A stretch of 26,875 bases of DNA. It comes from a virus. Positions 3,639-16,840 of this stretch are shown here, piece after piece. Location: positions 1 through 26,875 of IMG/VR virus record IMGVR_UViG_3300044730_000408. The stretch is one strand, 5' to 3'. Position 1 is the first letter of the stretch; each line of letters starts with the position of its first letter. The notes under the pieces were generated by a model. That model searched no databases, had not been told where the DNA came from, and saw only the letters and a list, made by a program, of their open reading frames with translations. A program made the position numbers and the translations under genes.

Positions 3639-3722
3639 GCGGACGTGGCGGAATTGGTAGACGCGCAGGTTTCAGGTACCTGTGGTGGCAACACTGTGAG
3701 AGTTCAAGTCTCTCCGTCCGCA
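3639..3722 (+). tRNA. trnL-CAG: tRNA-Leu (anticodon CAG)
   Basis: A complete 84-nt class II tRNA on the plus strand, opposite to nearly all genes. The acceptor stem GCGGACG pairs perfectly with CGTCCGC, followed by discriminator A3722; no CCA is encoded. The D-arm GCGGAATTGGTAGACGC is normal. The anticodon stem CAGGT/ACCTG holds loop TTCAGGT, giving anticodon CAG at 3673-3675 (reads CUG). A long variable arm follows, then T-arm GAGAG-TTCAAGT-CTCTC. It ends only a few bases from the integrase stop codon. Integrases often target tRNA genes, and cyanophage P-SSP7 carries an attP-like match to a host tRNA-Leu, so this may double as attP. A translational role for CUG codons is equally possible. 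Confidence 0.95.
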
Positions 3723-3726
3723 TCCC

Positions 3727-4581
3727 TCAGATTCCAGCGATAGCTGATTTCAGGGCTGCGTCGGTCGCCTTCACGTATCGAAGGCTGGTCTCGATGTTGC
3801 GATGCCCCATCAAGGCCATGATCTGTCTTGGATGAGTGACCTCACCCAGGAAGGTCCCAAAGCTGTGGCGAAGGCTGTGCCACACGTGGTCATCGGAGAT
3901 GCCACAAAAATCCCGCACCTTTTTGAACGCTCGATAGAGCTGATCTTTGTTGGAGAAGTCATCTCGGAAGAGATAGGACCGATCCAAGCGGCGCTGAAGG
4001 ATGGCTTGAACTTTGGGATGGATGGGAACCGCCCTGACATTGCGGCCCTTGGTTTCTCGGCCTGGTTTCCCTCCGACCCAAATGGTCTCTAGGGAAAGGT
4101 CGATGTCTTCTGACTTCAAAGCCATTAGCTCGCCCTGCCGAACGCCTGTGTAGGCGCTGAATGTGATGGCATCTGCCAGGTCATCTCGGTCAAAGATGTC
4201 CTTCGCCACAAAGGCCAGCCGATCCACCTGCTCTTTGGTGAAGTACGTCATCCGCACCTCACCCTCCCTCAGGCGTTTAAAACTGGGACATTCAACTGAG
4301 TGCAATCCAGCTTGGCTGGTCACCTTCAGGACGGTGGTCCCTGCAGAAACCACCCTGTTGACGGTCGATGTGGACCATTGCGGGTGGTCATCCTGCAGGT
4401 CAGCAATCATCTCCATCCACCATCCGGCCTTGGCCATACGGCTGAGTGGAAGTGAAAGCCCCGCATAAGAAGTGATGTGGTCGGCATTGATCCTGTTGGT
4501 CTTTGCCGATGGCAGACGTTTCCATCTGACTCTCCAGGTGTAGTCCAGGGCCTGGCCCCAGGTTCTGACTGTTGTAGTCAT
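3727..4581 (-). CDS. int: Tyrosine recombinase (phage integrase)
   Basis: A 284-aa site-specific recombinase. The catalytic residues are all visible: R148 in TGVRQGEL, a likely Lys in the GKPGRETKGR segment, H235-x-x-R238 in HSLRHSFG, H260 in LMGHRN and nucleophile Y269 in SLRYVKA. The N-terminal ~100 residues match a SAM-like core-binding domain in position. There is no sign of truncation. The start overlaps the MarR-like gene's stop (ATGA), and the gene ends 4 nt from the 3' end of the tRNA-Leu. Known cyanopodoviruses such as P-SSP7 carry an integrase in this early region. The intact active site suggests the protein could be functional. Confidence 0.95.
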   Translation of the reverse strand: MTTTVRTWGQALDYTWRVRWKRLPSAKTNRINADHITSYAGLSLPLSRMAKAGWWMEMIADLQDDHPQWSTSTVNRVVSAGTTVLKVTSQAGLHSVECPSFKRLREGEVRMTYFTKEQVDRLAFVAKDIFDRDDLADAITFSAYTGVRQGELMALKSEDIDLSLETIWVGGKPGRETKGRNVRAVPIHPKVQAILQRRLDRSYLFRDDFSNKDQLYRAFKKVRDFCGISDDHVWHSLRHSFGTFLGEVTHPRQIMALMGHRNIETSLRYVKATDAALKSAIAGI

Positions 4582-5141: not shown

Positions 5142-7481
5142 TCAACAGAAGAAATAAGAAGAGCCCTCCACGGAGGCAGGGTCAAAGTCGTAGACCATTG
5201 GAGGTAGGGTCAGAGCGCCGATCCTTTCGGCCAGGTCATGCAAGGGGCTGAACTCGGTGAAGCAGGTGGCGTAGGCCCTCCTGACAGCCCTGTTGAGTTG
5301 GTCCATGTCCTGGGCCAGACAGAGCACTGAGTCATGGATGACCGTGAACGGTGCATCAAAACTGACCAAACCCAGATGCAGGATTGATGCATCCAAGCTG
5401 TGTATCAGGTTTGGTGCTCCTGCGTTCTTATGGTGTTTGAGGTCAGGCTCCCCTAAAGAGGTGCCAATTTTGAGCTTGATTTTGCCCATCAGGTGGCTCT
5501 GGATCGTCTCTGTCTCCACATGCCTTAGGTCCTGCTTCACGACAAAGCCGCTAGGCGTGGTCCATTCGATGTGTGGTAGACCTCGCTTGATGGCCCCTCC
5601 GATCTCTCGGTTCAGCCATTCCATGACCTGCATAGGCCCTGGAACTATCTTCTTCATCGCCCCACGGGTCAGCCGTACCAGCTCACTGAGCTGCTCAGGA
5701 GCTAGCTCAATACCCCGTTTGGTCAGGGCATCACGGATGTAGCTCCGGTTGCTCAGGGTCTTGGCGTTGTAGGGGATGGTCATGACCACCCGCTTGACAT
5801 CAGACCTGCTGAGCTCGAAGTCCCACTCCTTTGGCAACTGGGGGTTGACCTCGTTGGCTACGGCTTTGTAGGCATCGTTCGGTTTGTCTCCTGGAAACAC
5901 GTTGACCAGAGCAGCAGTGCTCTTGTCGTGGCTTAGTCCAGCCAAGACCTGCAGACCTGAGCAGGTTGCGTCAACTGCAATGGGCAGGTGACACAGCTTC
6001 CTGGTTTTGGCAACCACTAAAGCGTGGTATTCCTCGCAGGCAGCCAAAAAGAGGAAGGGCTCACTGGTTCCCTCCCATTGGCTGATCTCACCGATGGGGT
6101 TCTGGGCAATCCGGCTGAAGAGCTCAGTGTTGGCCTCAGCCCACTGCTGCCTCTCGTCCATCGTGGCCTTGTCAAGCCCGTAGGTCGTGGCCAATTGGAA
6201 GTACAGCCAGTACAACGAGCGGCTTGTTAGAGGTTTGCCGTCTGCGAACAGCAAGAGGCTCTTACCGAATCCCGTGTCCTGAGGTGTTAGGAAAGCAGGG
6301 ATGGGGTAGACCCTGCCTCGATAGTCGAATGACCAGGGCAGGTAGTACCGCTCTTCCTTGACGAACCGCTTGGCCAAGGACAGGGTGATCTTTGTGCGGA
6401 TGCTCCGCTTGACCGAGGTGCTGTTGTAGTCATAGACCTCAGCAGCTTGCTTGCGGTAAAGGAACCGGGCTTCATAGTTGGTGGCTATGTCGTGTGGTTT
6501 ATCAGGCAGAGGCCTGAGGTCTTCGGGGATGAACTTGGCTGCTTCGATCTTGTAGCCATCCATTTCCAAGTGGCTGGCTACGTCAAGGATGAACGGGTTG
6601 ATCCGATAGGCCACTTTCTGTAGGTGGTTCAGAAAGGCCAACGGCTGTTCTCCCTGTAAACATGGTTTACCAAAAGTTCGGACCAGCTTGTTGCCCCTCC
6701 TGACCTCGTTGGTCAGGTACCCCCCTGCTCTCTCGTTGCTCCAGTCGTTGGGCTCAACCAACATGGGCAGACTGAGTGGTGAGAACAGCTCGGCCTGTCC
6801 CATCAAACCCTTGATCACATTCAGCATCTCTGCTGTTGGGACCAGATGGGTGGAGCGTCGGGTGCCCTGTGTCCTGGTGACCTTGTGCCACCAACCCGTG
6901 ATCCGGCAGACAGCATCAGCAAAGACGGTGCCGATCTGTACCCGTGACTTCCTGGGCCAAGGCTCCCAGTGGATGCCCATTTCTTTGAACCGACGGGTGG
7001 CGTCGTAGTCCTTGTAGTGCAGGCCCTTGCCCTTGTGGTGGTAGTTGCTGATGAAGCTCAGCAGGTTGGGGTCTTGCTCGTTGAAGTAGCGCCACTTGGC
7101 CTCTTGCTCAACAGCAATACCAACCCGGTCAATCACGTTGTTTAGCAGATCATCCCTGTCTTTTGGCGAAGTGCAAACATCGAACAGGGTCTTGATGGTC
7201 AGCATGGCGATGACCTCAGGCTCAATGCCGAGCGTGTGCTTAGCCAGGGGAGCTAGGGCTTGACCCGCCTTGCCTCTCATCAGGCGATGGGCCCTGATGC
7301 GGTTGATCTCTGCCGTAATGGCAGGCAGGGCCTCCTTGATCATCTTCCTGGCATAGACCGTGGAAGAGGCGTAGGCCCTGTCTGCGGCTTGTTGCGTGTT
7401 GCTGTACAGCTTGGCAATACCCTCCTGTACGGCTTGAGTTTCCAGCTTGATCTGTCGCTCGATCTGCTGTGGTGTGGGCAT
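5142..7481 (-). CDS. T7-type single-subunit DNA-directed RNA polymerase
   Basis: A 779-aa enzyme (T7 RNAP is 883 aa) that should transcribe middle and late phage genes. Motif A has catalytic D504 in LPIAVDATCSGLQ. Motif B has K563-R564 and Y571 in VKRVVMTIPYNAK, matching T7 K631, R632 and Y639. Motif C has D717 in VIHDSV, and the HSLDAS helix matches T7 HSQDGS. After Tyr571 this enzyme has Asn where T7 has Gly. The C-terminus is SSYFFC rather than T7 FAFA. The ATG at 7481 lies 22 nt after a GATTCCACT element. A 24-nt stretch within codons for FGKPCLQG is repeated near terL. Confidence 0.97.
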   Translation of the reverse strand: MPTPQQIERQIKLETQAVQEGIAKLYSNTQQAADRAYASSTVYARKMIKEALPAITAEINRIRAHRLMRGKAGQALAPLAKHTLGIEPEVIAMLTIKTLFDVCTSPKDRDDLLNNVIDRVGIAVEQEAKWRYFNEQDPNLLSFISNYHHKGKGLHYKDYDATRRFKEMGIHWEPWPRKSRVQIGTVFADAVCRITGWWHKVTRTQGTRRSTHLVPTAEMLNVIKGLMGQAELFSPLSLPMLVEPNDWSNERAGGYLTNEVRRGNKLVRTFGKPCLQGEQPLAFLNHLQKVAYRINPFILDVASHLEMDGYKIEAAKFIPEDLRPLPDKPHDIATNYEARFLYRKQAAEVYDYNSTSVKRSIRTKITLSLAKRFVKEERYYLPWSFDYRGRVYPIPAFLTPQDTGFGKSLLLFADGKPLTSRSLYWLYFQLATTYGLDKATMDERQQWAEANTELFSRIAQNPIGEISQWEGTSEPFLFLAACEEYHALVVAKTRKLCHLPIAVDATCSGLQVLAGLSHDKSTAALVNVFPGDKPNDAYKAVANEVNPQLPKEWDFELSRSDVKRVVMTIPYNAKTLSNRSYIRDALTKRGIELAPEQLSELVRLTRGAMKKIVPGPMQVMEWLNREIGGAIKRGLPHIEWTTPSGFVVKQDLRHVETETIQSHLMGKIKLKIGTSLGEPDLKHHKNAGAPNLIHSLDASILHLGLVSFDAPFTVIHDSVLCLAQDMDQLNRAVRRAYATCFTEFSPLHDLAERIGALTLPPMVYDFDPASVEGSSYFFC
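6652..6675. repeat. 24-bp repeat, copy 1 (inside RNA polymerase gene)
   Basis: Its core is GTAAACATGGTTTAC, a perfect inverted repeat with a 3-nt centre. The 24-bp stretch matches 11700-11723, just after the terL stop, at 23 of 24 positions and in the same orientation. It encodes FGKPCLQ in the polymerase. Confidence 0.75.
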
Positions 7482-9436: not shown

Positions 9437-9562
9437 AGATTATACGGTAAGTCGATAGGTTATTTGCCTTTCGGGCTACAGATCCTCGAGAATTGGGGTG
9501 ATCTATGCGTCTACATGCATAGCCTTGGCCCCTGGTGCTGTCGCTAGATCCTTAATCTAATG

Positions 9563-9579
9563 AGATCCCAGTCATTGCA
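9563..9579 (-). promoter_or_regulatory. Candidate promoter motif, copy 2 (GACTGGGATCT core)
   Basis: On the minus strand the 17-mer reads TGCAATGACTGGGATCT, one mismatch from the copy at 3473-3489, 126 nt upstream of the first early gene. Downstream on the minus strand a TAGATT hexamer could act as a -10. It could be a phage-polymerase or host-polymerase promoter. Confidence 0.35.
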
Positions 9580-9622
9580 GTGGATCTACCCTGCTGCCGG
9601 GCCTTGGGCTGGCACAGAAGCA

Positions 9623-9657
9623 CCCCCACCCCCCTGAATTTTGAGAAGGGGAGGGGG
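9623..9657. repeat. C-run/G-run inverted repeat
   Basis: CCCCCACCCCCC and GGGGAGGGGG can pair to form a 9-bp GC stem with one A-A mismatch and a loop of about 15 nt. A further GGGGGG follows (9665-9670), so the plus strand also carries closely spaced G-tracts that could stack. Function is unknown; structure near packaging ends is one possibility. Confidence 0.45.
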
Positions 9658-9951
9658 CATTGGGGGGTAGGCCGCCGGAACGCCCTACGTATCTCCCTTT
9701 GGAAATTTCTGTCAAATTACTTACCCCCCTCCAGGAGCCCCTACAAGGCCCCTCTACCTTCTCAAAGGTCAAACCCTACCCATCAACATCTCAAAGCCCC
9801 TTCTAGAGCCTTCTAGACCCCTCTCATCATCAATGCAGCAGATCTGCACCTTGGTTGACAACGAGACGCTGTGATGTGTAGGACATAGGGGTGAGGCCAG
9901 CGTGGCGGACACCACCTGACCTCGTGACCAACTCAACCAGAGATTGAGCTG

Positions 9952-10173
9952 ATGACTTCATCATGGCTACCCCAGGCAAGACCTGCTGCAGCACAACCAC
10001 CGTTCATCACCCGTAAGCCTGTACGGATCACGACAACGGTGTCTTGGGCTACGTACCAGTCTTTGATCGGGAAGAGCGACTTCGAGGGCCGGAGCTTAAG
10101 CAACCTGATGGCCTTTGTTTTGGAGTCCTATGTCAAGAGCCCCCAGGGATCCCTTGATCAGAGGCCCCTCTGA
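9952..10173 (+). CDS. Ribbon-helix-helix-like DNA-binding protein (73 aa), plus strand
   Basis: Starts MTSSWLPQARPAAAQPPFIT. After a Pro/Ala-rich leader of about 20 residues comes KPVRITTTVSWATYQSLIGK, then SLSNLMAFVLESYVK. This is the β-strand, helix, helix layout of CopG/Arc-type repressors: alternating basic/Thr strand, then a helix ending at S-L-S-N-L. It is on the opposite strand from nearly all genes. Its 3' end overlaps the minus-strand gene 10133-10279 by 41 nt. A role as a repressor of early genes or lysogeny control is possible but inferred. Confidence 0.6.
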   Translation: MTSSWLPQARPAAAQPPFITRKPVRITTTVSWATYQSLIGKSDFEGRSLSNLMAFVLESYVKSPQGSLDQRPL

Positions 10174-10279
10174 GCTCCTTTAAGGCCTTTCTAATGCTCT
10201 GAGCAAGGGTTGTATTGCCTTTAGCCTCTACAGCCCTTAGAGCCTCTTCTAGGGCCCTCTCACGTTGACTTGGATTCAT
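10133..10279 (-). CDS. Small charged helical protein (48 aa)
   Basis: Starts MNPSQRERALEEALRAVEAK and ends DQGIPGGS. It is predicted to be a single long charged helix (RERALEEALRAVEAKG then LAQSIRKALKELRG), like a short coiled coil. ATG 10279 is chosen over a longer frame because it overlaps the upstream stop (10260) by only 20 nt. Its end overlaps the plus-strand RHH-like gene. No family is recognised. Confidence 0.5.
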   Translation of the reverse strand: MNPSQRERALEEALRAVEAKGNTTLAQSIRKALKELRGASDQGIPGGS

Positions 10280-11373: not shown

Positions 11374-11704
11374 GGTGAGGGTGATTGAGTCTTGGCTAAC
11401 GCCAATCCTCAAACCCCACCAGCTTCGCTGTGTTCCTGGGGAGTCAGACATCAGGTCGTCAGGGCTACGCCCTTCCTCCTTCTGTCTTCCTCCTACGGAG
11501 GCCGGGGCCGGTAGGTTTTGTGTCTTCTAAAGGGCGGCCGGAAACCCTTTAGCGGGAGTGTTGCTATCTCACTCCTACGGTCAATTGTTTGGTCTTGTGG
11601 GCTAGGGGGAAGGCCCCCCATGTAAAACGGAAGGGCCTCGATTCATCACCGCATATCCACACGGATCGTGTCTTACGACCCTCAGGGGAGCACCACTTCC
11701 CCTG
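11374..11704. ncRNA. Array of seven hairpins between terL and thyX, candidate structured RNA
   Basis: Seven consecutive inverted repeats fall in this non-coding stretch: a long imperfect stem at 11374-11420 with loop TAAC; GGGC-TAC-GCCC at 11462-11472; CCTCC-TAC-GGAGG at 11489-11501; CTAAAGGG/CCCTTTAG at 11527-11552; GGAGTG/CACTCC at 11555-11575; a G5/C5 stem at 11605-11619; and CAGGGG/CCCCTG at 11683-11704. None has a terminator-type T-tract on the minus strand. The RNA may be a leader for thyX, a 3' structure of the late transcript, or part of the packaging region. Strand and function are unproven. Confidence 0.4.
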
Positions 11705-11723
11705 TAAACATGGTTTATCAAAA
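11700..11723. repeat. 24-bp repeat, copy 2 (after terL stop)
   Basis: Matches 6652-6675 inside the RNA polymerase gene at 23 of 24 positions, same orientation, with core GTAAACATGGTTTA. Here it is non-coding, immediately after the terL stop (11724-11726), and overlaps the last hairpin of the array. Confidence 0.75.
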
Positions 11724-13457
11724 CTACCGACCCTTAGGAGTCCAGTCGTAGACAGGCTTGTGGGCAGGTGTCAGGGTCTTAAAGCTCTTGCCCAACACCA
11801 GGGCATCAGTAGCCAGGTGAGGGTGGTCTTCAAAGGCCGTCATCATGGCTTGCCATTCCTCATGTTTACGGATGGCTTGGGCCTGGAAGGCAGACTGGGC
11901 AAGGGCATCGATGAACCACTTCACCCCTTGAGCCAGAGCGTCAATACGGTCATCGTGTTTGACGGCTCCTTTCTCCCGACACATCCTGGACATCTGGTAC
12001 ATGAGCATGTACTCCAGGCGTTTCTCAGGAGGGGAATCAGGGTTGGACTTGTAGTCGTAGTCGAACACCTTGGGGTCAATGATCAGCTTGTGCTGGTTCA
12101 TGACTGGTTCCAGGGTATCGATGATGCGTTCTTCTTTTCTTACTGTTGCTCTGACTTCTTCGATGTCGATGGGTACTTGCATCTGGATGGCATGACGCTT
12201 AAAGAGTTCGCAGATCATGCCGTCCCCAAAGTTGGATTCAACTAGGAGTCGAGACGCCTTGTAACGCTTAGCAAGACGAATAATGTCAGACAGAGTATCG
12301 TCACTATAGCCATCACGGTAAGCCTTTAGATCACGGACGAATACGTAGCCATTAGCTTGCGAAAGGACGCAGGCCACAGTTTCATCAGTTCCTCGTCCCG
12401 ACGGATCGACCGATACAATCGTTTCATCGAAAGGAACGATTCCTTCGTCAATAAACATGGGACTGTAGAACCGATCTCCAGGAAGACCCACAGCAGGCAG
12501 TTCTTTAAGGCAATAGCGTATATCAGATGACCAAGCATAACGTTCTGCACACTCTTCCCCGATCGGGGTTACGATTAGATCTTGGAACTTAAGGGGGAAC
12601 TTCTCCGCATCAGAGAGGGAGGTGTCCAACATGAACTGGAGCATGAAGTTGCTCCTGCCCATTGCGGCTTCTCGTTCAAGCAGATCGAAGTCCGTAAAGC
12701 GACTATCTGTTGGAGCCCAGGGTTCTGCCCCGTTGTCCATATCGGCCACTAGAAGCGGCGCTAAGAGGCCTTCATACCCCCTGGCCTCACGTGGGTACCT
12801 AGCGGGCCAAACAAAGGGCTTGTAGGACCTCTCAGCGAGCTTTCTGTAGATTGTAAAAGTAGACTGAGGTGTGCCTAAAAACAGGATTCGGCTGCTCTCA
12901 TCTGGGGTAAGGATTGACTCCGCTTCAGTCACTAGTTGCAGGAGCTTTTCCCGCTGCATATCTGTAGCAGAGTTCAGGGGAACTTCAACGTCATCAAAGA
13001 TCATTAAATGGGCACGGGATCCAGTCATCTGACCTGTGATGCCCACAGACTTGACAGAGGGAGCCTGGTGGGGTTTTGCTGGCCCTACGTCGAAGGAGAT
13101 CCGCGACCACCTCTGATCTTCTGATTTGGGACCCAGATGGTTGAGCCAAGAAATATCGAGAATGAGCTTCTGACAGAAGATCGAGAAGTTGTCGGCTCGT
13201 TCCTTGGAAGCCGAGATCACCATGATCTTCTTGTCCGGGTCGTTGTAGAGAGTCCATAGCACAAATGCTGCTGTAATCCAGGACTTTCCAACTCCACGAA
13301 AAGCGCTGATCTGGAGACGCTTAGGGCCGTGTTGCAGATAGTCAGCAATCGCCAGTTGAGCCCGTGTGGGCTTTGGGAGTCCTAGCTCCCTCCAGATCAG
13401 TGTTAGAAACAGTTTGAACTCTTCTCGAAGCTTGCGGTCTAAATCATTAACGTTCAT
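11724..13457 (-). CDS. terL: T7 gp19-like large terminase (TerL)
   Basis: A 577-aa packaging motor (T7 gp19 is 586 aa): ATPase plus nuclease that cuts concatemers and pumps DNA into the head. Walker A is FRGVGKS at 53-59, Walker B LMIFDD at 151-156, and coupling motif LFLGTPQST near 193-201. The nuclease has D351 in VSVDPSG, E407 in LLVESNFGDG and the acidic HDDRID at 501-506. ATG 13457 lies 5 nt after the stop of the tail-lysozyme-like gene. The family assignment is secure. In T7 this gene is near the right end of the genome; here early genes follow about 2 kb downstream. Confidence 0.96.
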   Translation of the reverse strand: MNVNDLDRKLREEFKLFLTLIWRELGLPKPTRAQLAIADYLQHGPKRLQISAFRGVGKSWITAAFVLWTLYNDPDKKIMVISASKERADNFSIFCQKLILDISWLNHLGPKSEDQRWSRISFDVGPAKPHQAPSVKSVGITGQMTGSRAHLMIFDDVEVPLNSATDMQREKLLQLVTEAESILTPDESSRILFLGTPQSTFTIYRKLAERSYKPFVWPARYPREARGYEGLLAPLLVADMDNGAEPWAPTDSRFTDFDLLEREAAMGRSNFMLQFMLDTSLSDAEKFPLKFQDLIVTPIGEECAERYAWSSDIRYCLKELPAVGLPGDRFYSPMFIDEGIVPFDETIVSVDPSGRGTDETVACVLSQANGYVFVRDLKAYRDGYSDDTLSDIIRLAKRYKASRLLVESNFGDGMICELFKRHAIQMQVPIDIEEVRATVRKEERIIDTLEPVMNQHKLIIDPKVFDYDYKSNPDSPPEKRLEYMLMYQMSRMCREKGAVKHDDRIDALAQGVKWFIDALAQSAFQAQAIRKHEEWQAMMTAFEDHPHLATDALVLGKSFKTLTPAHKPVYDWTPKGR

Positions 13458-16291: not shown

Positions 16292-16840
16292 TTAGTTGGT
16301 AAGGGTAATGGTGTCTTCGTTGCTTGCACTAAAGAGAGTGCTATCAGTAATCACGGAGCCAGAGGTAACCTGATCGATAACCGTGATGACTTCTTCAGGG
16401 ACAGGTACAACCTCCCAGACGCTGAAGTCAGGACCAGTGACATACGCAGCAAGCTCGTCAGTGGTCTCTGTAAGCCTCAGGAAGGCCTCCTTTTCATTGC
16501 TTAGGGAGCGAATCTCAGCACGACGCTCAAGGACGCTCTGGGGGGCTTCACGGCCCGTCTCAGCAAAGCGGGTGATATACCAATCGGATTGGCTAAGGAG
16601 GGAGCCAGCAGTTTGCTTAACTTGGCCTACCCACTGCTCTACAAGCTGGGCATGATCCTTAGGAATACCTGTATCCCAATAGAACCTCTGATCGACCGGG
16701 ATTGGGTCAGGCTCTTCCGTGATGCCAATGGCTGCCCGCTCTTCAGGTGAGGCAAGACGGATCCAGTTGGCAGGATATTGAACGCCCTCGTGCGCAAAGG
16801 CAACGTCAGGGCTAATTGGTTTTTCGTTCAGAATAAACAT
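16292..16840 (-). CDS. Tail fibre assembly-like protein (182 aa)
   Basis: Starts MFILNEKPISPDVAFAHEGV. The segment FYWDTGIPKDHAQLVEQWVG and SQSDWYITRFAETGREAP resembles chaperone/assembly proteins encoded after tail fibres, which have a W-rich helical core. The C-terminus (ITDSTLFSASNEDTITLTN) is polar. It directly follows the 792-aa fibre gene. It is probably a fibre-associated chaperone; the evidence is pattern and position, not catalytic residues. Confidence 0.65.
   Translation of the reverse strand: MFILNEKPISPDVAFAHEGVQYPANWIRLASPEERAAIGITEEPDPIPVDQRFYWDTGIPKDHAQLVEQWVGQVKQTAGSLLSQSDWYITRFAETGREAPQSVLERRAEIRSLSNEKEAFLRLTETTDELAAYVTGPDFSVWEVVPVPEEVITVIDQVTSGSVITDSTLFSASNEDTITLTN

Follow-up and report, generated by a model that had tools for sequence, protein, structure and literature searches.

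Why would a T7-like cyanophage keep a non-coding gap full of hairpins directly behind its large terminase gene? The question is raised by an IMG/VR record of 26,875 bases (the window, by which we mean the whole stretch of DNA analysed), a T7-like cyanophage of the Syn5/P60 type whose TerL is 80–83% identical to that of Syn5, P60, S-CBP42 and S-TIP28. Its sense strand is the minus strand, which carries terL, thyX and nearly all other genes of the window. No notable coding frame lies between terL, whose stop is at 11724, and thyX, which starts at about 11344. The order terL-gap-thyX is kept in metagenomic relatives, with gaps of about 80 to more than 800 nt. A first-pass annotation had described a hairpin-rich gap at this place, and the gap is real: the stems are found on the sense strand, and coding frames of note are absent. 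Its bounds of 11374 and 11723 also fit, with the refinement that the first 20 nt on the terL side appear to be promoter, not hairpin. This promoter had gone unnoticed in the first-pass annotation, although the region is best understood from it.

Structured elements of the gap

The following features, all read in sense orientation, can be distinguished; the evidence for each is given in brackets.

11705..11723, minus strand: predicted right-end promoter of the phage RNA polymerase (RNAP), TTTTGATAAACCATGTTTA, with +1 near A11705 (twin in the RNAP gene, Syn5-homologous position)
11683..11704, minus strand: hairpin A1, stem CAGGGGA/TCCCCTG at 11704-11698/11689-11683, octaloop AGTGGTGC at 11697-11690 (covariation, covariance-model match)
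11663..11681, minus strand: extra hairpin A1b, GGGTCGT AAGAC ACGATCC, stem 11681-11675/11669-11663, inserted between A1 and core (window's close relatives only)
11646..11662, minus strand: conserved core GTGTGGATATGCGGTGA of the type GTGTGGA-n-GCGGT (sequence invariance)
11610..11639, minus strand: hairpin A2, the third hairpin, terminator-like, stem about 11638-11633/11616-11611, T tract degenerate (TTCCCCC) (hairpin and T-rich tail in relatives)
11555..11575, minus strand: module B hairpin HP4, GGAGTG/CACTCC, stem 11575-11570/11560-11555, loop AGATAGCAA (covariation, 8 sequences)
11527..11552, minus strand: module B hairpin HP5, CTAAAGGG/CCCTTTAG, stem 11552-11545/11534-11527 (covariation, 8 sequences)
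11391..11520, minus strand: two or three thyX-proximal stems, including TTGGC GTTA GCCAA at about 11405-11392 (predicted fold)
6653..6671, minus strand: twin promoter word GGTAAACCATGTTTACAGG, at 35% of the RNAP gene (match to the right-end word)

Can folding energy alone make the case for structure? The sense fold of the gap reaches −144.5 kcal/mol (z −4.7, with 0 of 100 shuffles equally good) and the antisense fold z −1.9, while the terL-thyX spacers of 82 unique relatives average z −3.2 in sense and −2.6 in antisense. Other 300-nt windows of the same genome, coding ones included, reach z −4 to −5 (minus-strand control: mean z −1.45, sd 1.46), and folding energy was therefore rejected as proof. 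The stems that had been called unusually dense are thus real, but their folding energy is not exceptional for this genome, so that the case for structure rests on covariation. Absence of covariation had been named beforehand as the outcome that would speak against structure; the comparison was run and covarying stems were found, so the structure is not refuted. The thyX-proximal stems are nearly invariant in close relatives, which leaves no variation for such a test. Direct DNA similarity searches of the gap against phage records returned nothing useful, and a scan for sigma-70 promoters and terminators gave nothing above shuffles.

Hairpin A1 covaries strongly. Across 47 distinct sequences its 7-bp stem is 98.2% paired and carries double changes at six of seven pairs, with 87 double-change cells where 22.5 are expected; the covariation score is 0.796, compared with at most 0.278 in slid controls. 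Among the G-U cells of these 47 sequences 27 are G-U and one is U-G; on the other strand they would be C-A mismatches, and the pairing is therefore that of a sense-strand RNA. Next to no variation is seen in the loop AGTGGTG(C/T) and the core G(T/C)GTGGA-n-GCG(G): GTGGA and GCG are present in 47 of 47 aligned sequences, and 51 of 166 loci carry the 15-nt core letter for letter. Even the inserted A1b shows a compensatory U-A to C-G double change in the stem of one relative (L014). S-CBP2 retains hairpin A1 and has no core.

Downstream of the core, 68 of 74 non-redundant relatives have a sequence-variable hairpin within 20 nt, the counterpart of A2. The fraction of T after the last G-C pair of this hairpin is 0.45 in the relatives, against a background of 0.26 (p 1e-9). 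The remark in the first-pass annotation that no terminator T-tract is present holds for the window, in which the third hairpin is followed by TTCCCCC, by its letters a poor terminator; the homologous hairpin of most relatives does have a T-rich run. We searched 13 genomes, namely the window and 12 isolates from 11 genera (Syn5, P60, S-CBP42, S-TIP28, SS120-1, S-CBP2, S-CBP4, S-RIP1, P-SSP7, S-RIP2, P-SSP10 and S-CBP3), with a covariance model that did not include the window sequence. It finds one copy per genome in 8 of the 13 and matches the window with E 1e-4. Rfam, at gathering and at permissive thresholds, returned chance matches only and no family.

Further towards thyX, module B covaries in eight sequences. 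HP4 occurs with three stem types around an almost invariant loop (100% paired, double changes at three of six pairs), and HP5 is weaker (87.5% paired, double changes at two of eight). A different, Syn5-type module lies about 80–250 nt behind element A (A1, core and A2) in the loci L167, L051, L052, L056 and L169. It looks like a three-way junction with a probable pseudoknot between loop and downstream sequence, whose strands, for example CGACTGGGG/CCCCAGTCG in L052, look covarying by eye; an Rfam match for the L052 module was not found. Elsewhere in the window, a second stretch poor in convincing genes at 9437-10259 (sense fold z −4.3 for the folding window at 9601) might hold the genome end or a terminal repeat, and a tRNA-Leu (CAG) at 3639-3722 adjoins the integrase gene at 3727-4581, which we take to be the usual attachment-site layout in these phages.

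The unit is not confined to close relatives of the window. Phages of the P-SSP7, S-CBP4 and S-RIP type carry a variant, group II, with GGGTGGACCC, in which a stem such as CAGGAG/CTCCTG encloses AAGGGAAGGGTGGACCCGA and is followed by a hairpin with CTTTTT; the unit of P-SSP10 belongs to group I. The unit lies behind terL in 109 of 115 group I loci and in 58 of 58 group II loci, counts that include loci fetched by DNA pattern alone, and five of the six group I exceptions lack the stem and fit the pattern only by chance. Among the group I loci that extend far enough, 34 of 73 have thyX within 1.2 kb downstream; in group II it is found in 30 of 31. Deposited records annotate no feature at the unit, except in S-CBP4 (HM559717 and NC_048183), where a terminase annotation overlaps it. 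An origin as a host non-coding RNA was considered and rejected: a scan of bacterial genomes found the full stem and motif only in two phage-like contigs of metagenome-assembled genomes (MAGs). Element A with its stem lies on contigs assigned to a Crocinitomicaceae MAG (L406) and a Euryarchaeota MAG (L421); both contigs are probably cyanophage DNA that binning has placed in a bacterial and an archaeal genome.

A predicted promoter word shared with the RNA polymerase gene

What would transcribe such an RNA? The 23 nt directly behind the window's terL read TTTTGATAAACCATGTTTACAGG. The word at this position has a twin inside the RNAP gene (16–18 nt exact, one mismatch in 19) and no further copy in the window. 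The same arrangement holds in 13 of 13 genomes, where one exact word of 13–25 nt, different from phage to phage, recurs at the unit's start and within the RNAP gene. With two mismatches allowed, exactly two copies exist genome-wide in 12 of the 13 and three in S-CBP2 (L172), whose third copy, at 16390 and with one mismatch, lies within a ribonucleotide reductase gene. Taking all loci that have both regions, a word of at least 12 nt is shared in 40 of 44, and in 39 of these 40 the RNAP-gene copy sits at 0.33–0.36 of the gene. The twin in the RNAP gene contains the start of the 5' arm and neither hairpin nor core, and the A1 hairpin and core are thus not parts of the promoter. Such phage-specific word pairs are what would be left by a polymerase that co-evolves with its two promoters.

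In nearly all these phages the RNAP gene (5142-7481 in the window) holds the promoter word at about 35% of its length. Transcripts begun there would cover only the final two thirds of the polymerase's own gene, and this may limit self-amplification of the enzyme. A related observation comes from the pelagiphage HTVC011P (L480), in which a 20-nt twin word, CTAAGTGCCACTATTAGATA, has one copy following terL and the other where the RNAP gene ends. The two copies are likely the promoter pair of that polymerase, without the hairpin unit; hairpin A1 was not found behind terL in HTVC011P or HTVC019P.

Syn5 provides the reference point. Its RNAP promoter is published, with activity shown for Syn5 and +1 at the G after GTAA, as taken from template design, and the phage is reported to have only two promoters, one of them inside the RNAP gene (PMC3950665). 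The Syn5 positions equivalent to the window promoter hold ATTGGGCACCCGTAAGCAAG, which is the published promoter. Like that of the window, the right-end copy of the Syn5 promoter, ATTGGGCACCCGTAA, stands behind terL with a second copy in the RNAP gene; the two promoters are positional equivalents, but their sequences are unrelated. As a candidate for the window promoter the Syn5 sequence itself was rejected, since it has no match in the window and the promoter word is phage-specific. With transcription starting at the G after GTAA, the Syn5 hairpin CAAGAGA-AGTGGTGC-TCTCTTG (7 bp) begins at +2. In the window, where +1 was placed by alignment, the predicted start likewise lies one base ahead of A1. 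In Syn5, 1,402 nt separate the start of the unit from the right end, which places it beyond the terminal repeat of 237 nt. Outside Syn5, promoter activity is what we infer from the paired words and their positions.

T7 offers a second comparison. It uses many promoters, not two, and one of them, phiOR, shares the placement: this phage-RNAP promoter lies near the right end, roughly 100 nt past the gene for the large terminase (+1 at 39229, 99 nt behind gene 19). In T7 and T3, phiOR has a reported role in initiating replication at the right end or in packaging of concatemers. The right-end words share traits of this promoter class, lying directly behind the large terminase gene in the loci counted above and, in the 13 genomes, matching the other predicted promoter of their phage. 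The T7 segment, however, contains no AGTGGTGC hairpin, no core and no following terminator-like hairpin.

A probable right-end unit and its rivals

We consider it probable that the gap holds a right-end transcription unit, in which a phage-RNAP promoter behind terL makes a short structured non-coding RNA. What is observed are paired promoter words, covariation at the RNA level, conservation beside terL and a T-rich tail; termination by the phage RNAP, a free RNA and its role are predicted. In this scheme the phage RNAP would start directly behind terL, near 11705, and the emerging transcript would fold into A1, which would present the invariant loop AGUGGUGC; next would come the core GUGUGGA-n-GCGGU, likewise invariant and single-stranded. 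Most transcripts would stop at A2, about 75–100 nt from +1, and form a short structured non-coding RNA. With the weak T tract of the window, more transcripts may continue through module B into thyX. A partner, be it protein or RNA, would likely make contact at the loop and core. The RNA might act by binding this partner in trans, or it might serve replication or packaging at the right end in the manner of phiOR in T7, and the promoter would also fulfil whatever function phiOR has there.

Of the four candidates put forward in the first-pass annotation, a small RNA fits best, as paired promoter, covarying 5' hairpin, invariant loop and core, and terminator-like hairpin come as one unit. Phage-encoded small RNAs resemble it in having their own promoter, a stable 5' hairpin and a terminator-like 3' hairpin. 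Here, too, a predicted promoter and terminator flank a non-coding structured segment, the terminator tract being weak in the window. The unit differs from them in that a single-subunit phage RNAP would transcribe the predicted RNA and in having no Rfam family. In most relatives A2 with its T-rich tail is similar to a T7-type class I terminator (hairpin and U run), whereas in the window the T tract is interrupted. A2 may fail to terminate this class of polymerase, because Syn5 RNAP reads through the T7 terminator in vitro (PMC3950665).

How do other explanations compare? The most serious of them, which we nevertheless hold to be rather unlikely, assumes a phiOR-like promoter at which the act of transcription is what counts, whether to initiate replication at the right end or to package concatemers, while the hairpins do no more than stabilise the transcript or terminate it, and bind no partner. 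The matching location of phiOR in T7, 99 nt past gene 19, argues for it, as does HTVC011P, whose twin word without A1 suggests that a promoter can exist without the RNA motif. It leaves unexplained, though, why an 8-nt loop and a core are invariant across many genera, and the T7 phiOR transcript has no such hairpin. A cis-regulatory leader of the downstream gene, an attenuator or riboswitch acting on thyX in the window, appears improbable. It would account for a promoter, a terminator-like hairpin and covarying module B between the start site and thyX, and for the presence of thyX after nearly every group II unit (30/31). Yet in group I the unit stays behind terL and thyX is next in only 34 of 73 loci with enough DNA, the spacer varies from 80 to more than 800 nt, and Rfam gives no match. 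The leader once proposed for thyX is therefore not upheld as the main role, and read-through from the unit into thyX is possible.

The remaining two explanations stay closer to the end of the late genes. That the elements are only a terminator or 3' stabiliser of a long late transcript ending after terL is very improbable. In its favour, the last late gene is followed at once by a GC hairpin whose tail is rich in T, but neither the second promoter one base ahead of A1 nor the invariant loop and core would be explained. From the earlier suggestion of a stabilising 3' end, what survives is a possible side role of A2. We give hardly any credence to packaging-cleavage sites in the DNA at the genome end, be they cruciforms or terminase sites. 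Their proximity to terL and the right end would fit, but the Syn5 unit, as deposited, lies 1,402 nt from the end and beyond the 237-nt terminal repeat, which speaks against the packaging role proposed at first pass, and the G-U bias of the stem indicates RNA and not DNA hairpins.

Implications for T7-like cyanophages

A right-end promoter is already known in Syn5, whose RNAP serves as an in vitro transcription enzyme, and as phiOR in T7. A universal cyanophage promoter pair with predicted start sites was not found in the annotations or literature searched. The conserved structured RNA was likewise not found in Rfam, annotations or literature; the Syn5 RNAP literature searched mentions no structured RNA at the start site and states no reason for the second, right-end promoter, the original enzyme paper (J Biol Chem 2013, PMC3561573) lying outside the scope of these three statements. 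The comparison predicts the promoter pair and its start sites for every T7-like cyanophage examined, P-SSP7 included, and the right-end copy is predicted to begin a conserved structured RNA. These predictions are testable in existing isolates such as Syn5 and P-SSP7.

Going one step further, we tentatively entertain the idea, at somewhat less than even confidence, that T7-like cyanophages share a widespread, once-per-genome family of non-coding RNAs made by the phage polymerase, whose invariant loop and core act in trans by binding a factor of the phage or the host. Candidate partners would then be the polymerase, the terminase or a host RNA. If true, infection by well-studied phages would require an RNA component that has gone unannotated. 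The unit is found in T7-like viruses of both ocean and freshwater cyanobacteria, and if the RNA is real and trans-acting, a very abundant group of ocean viruses would carry an unrecognised RNA gene.
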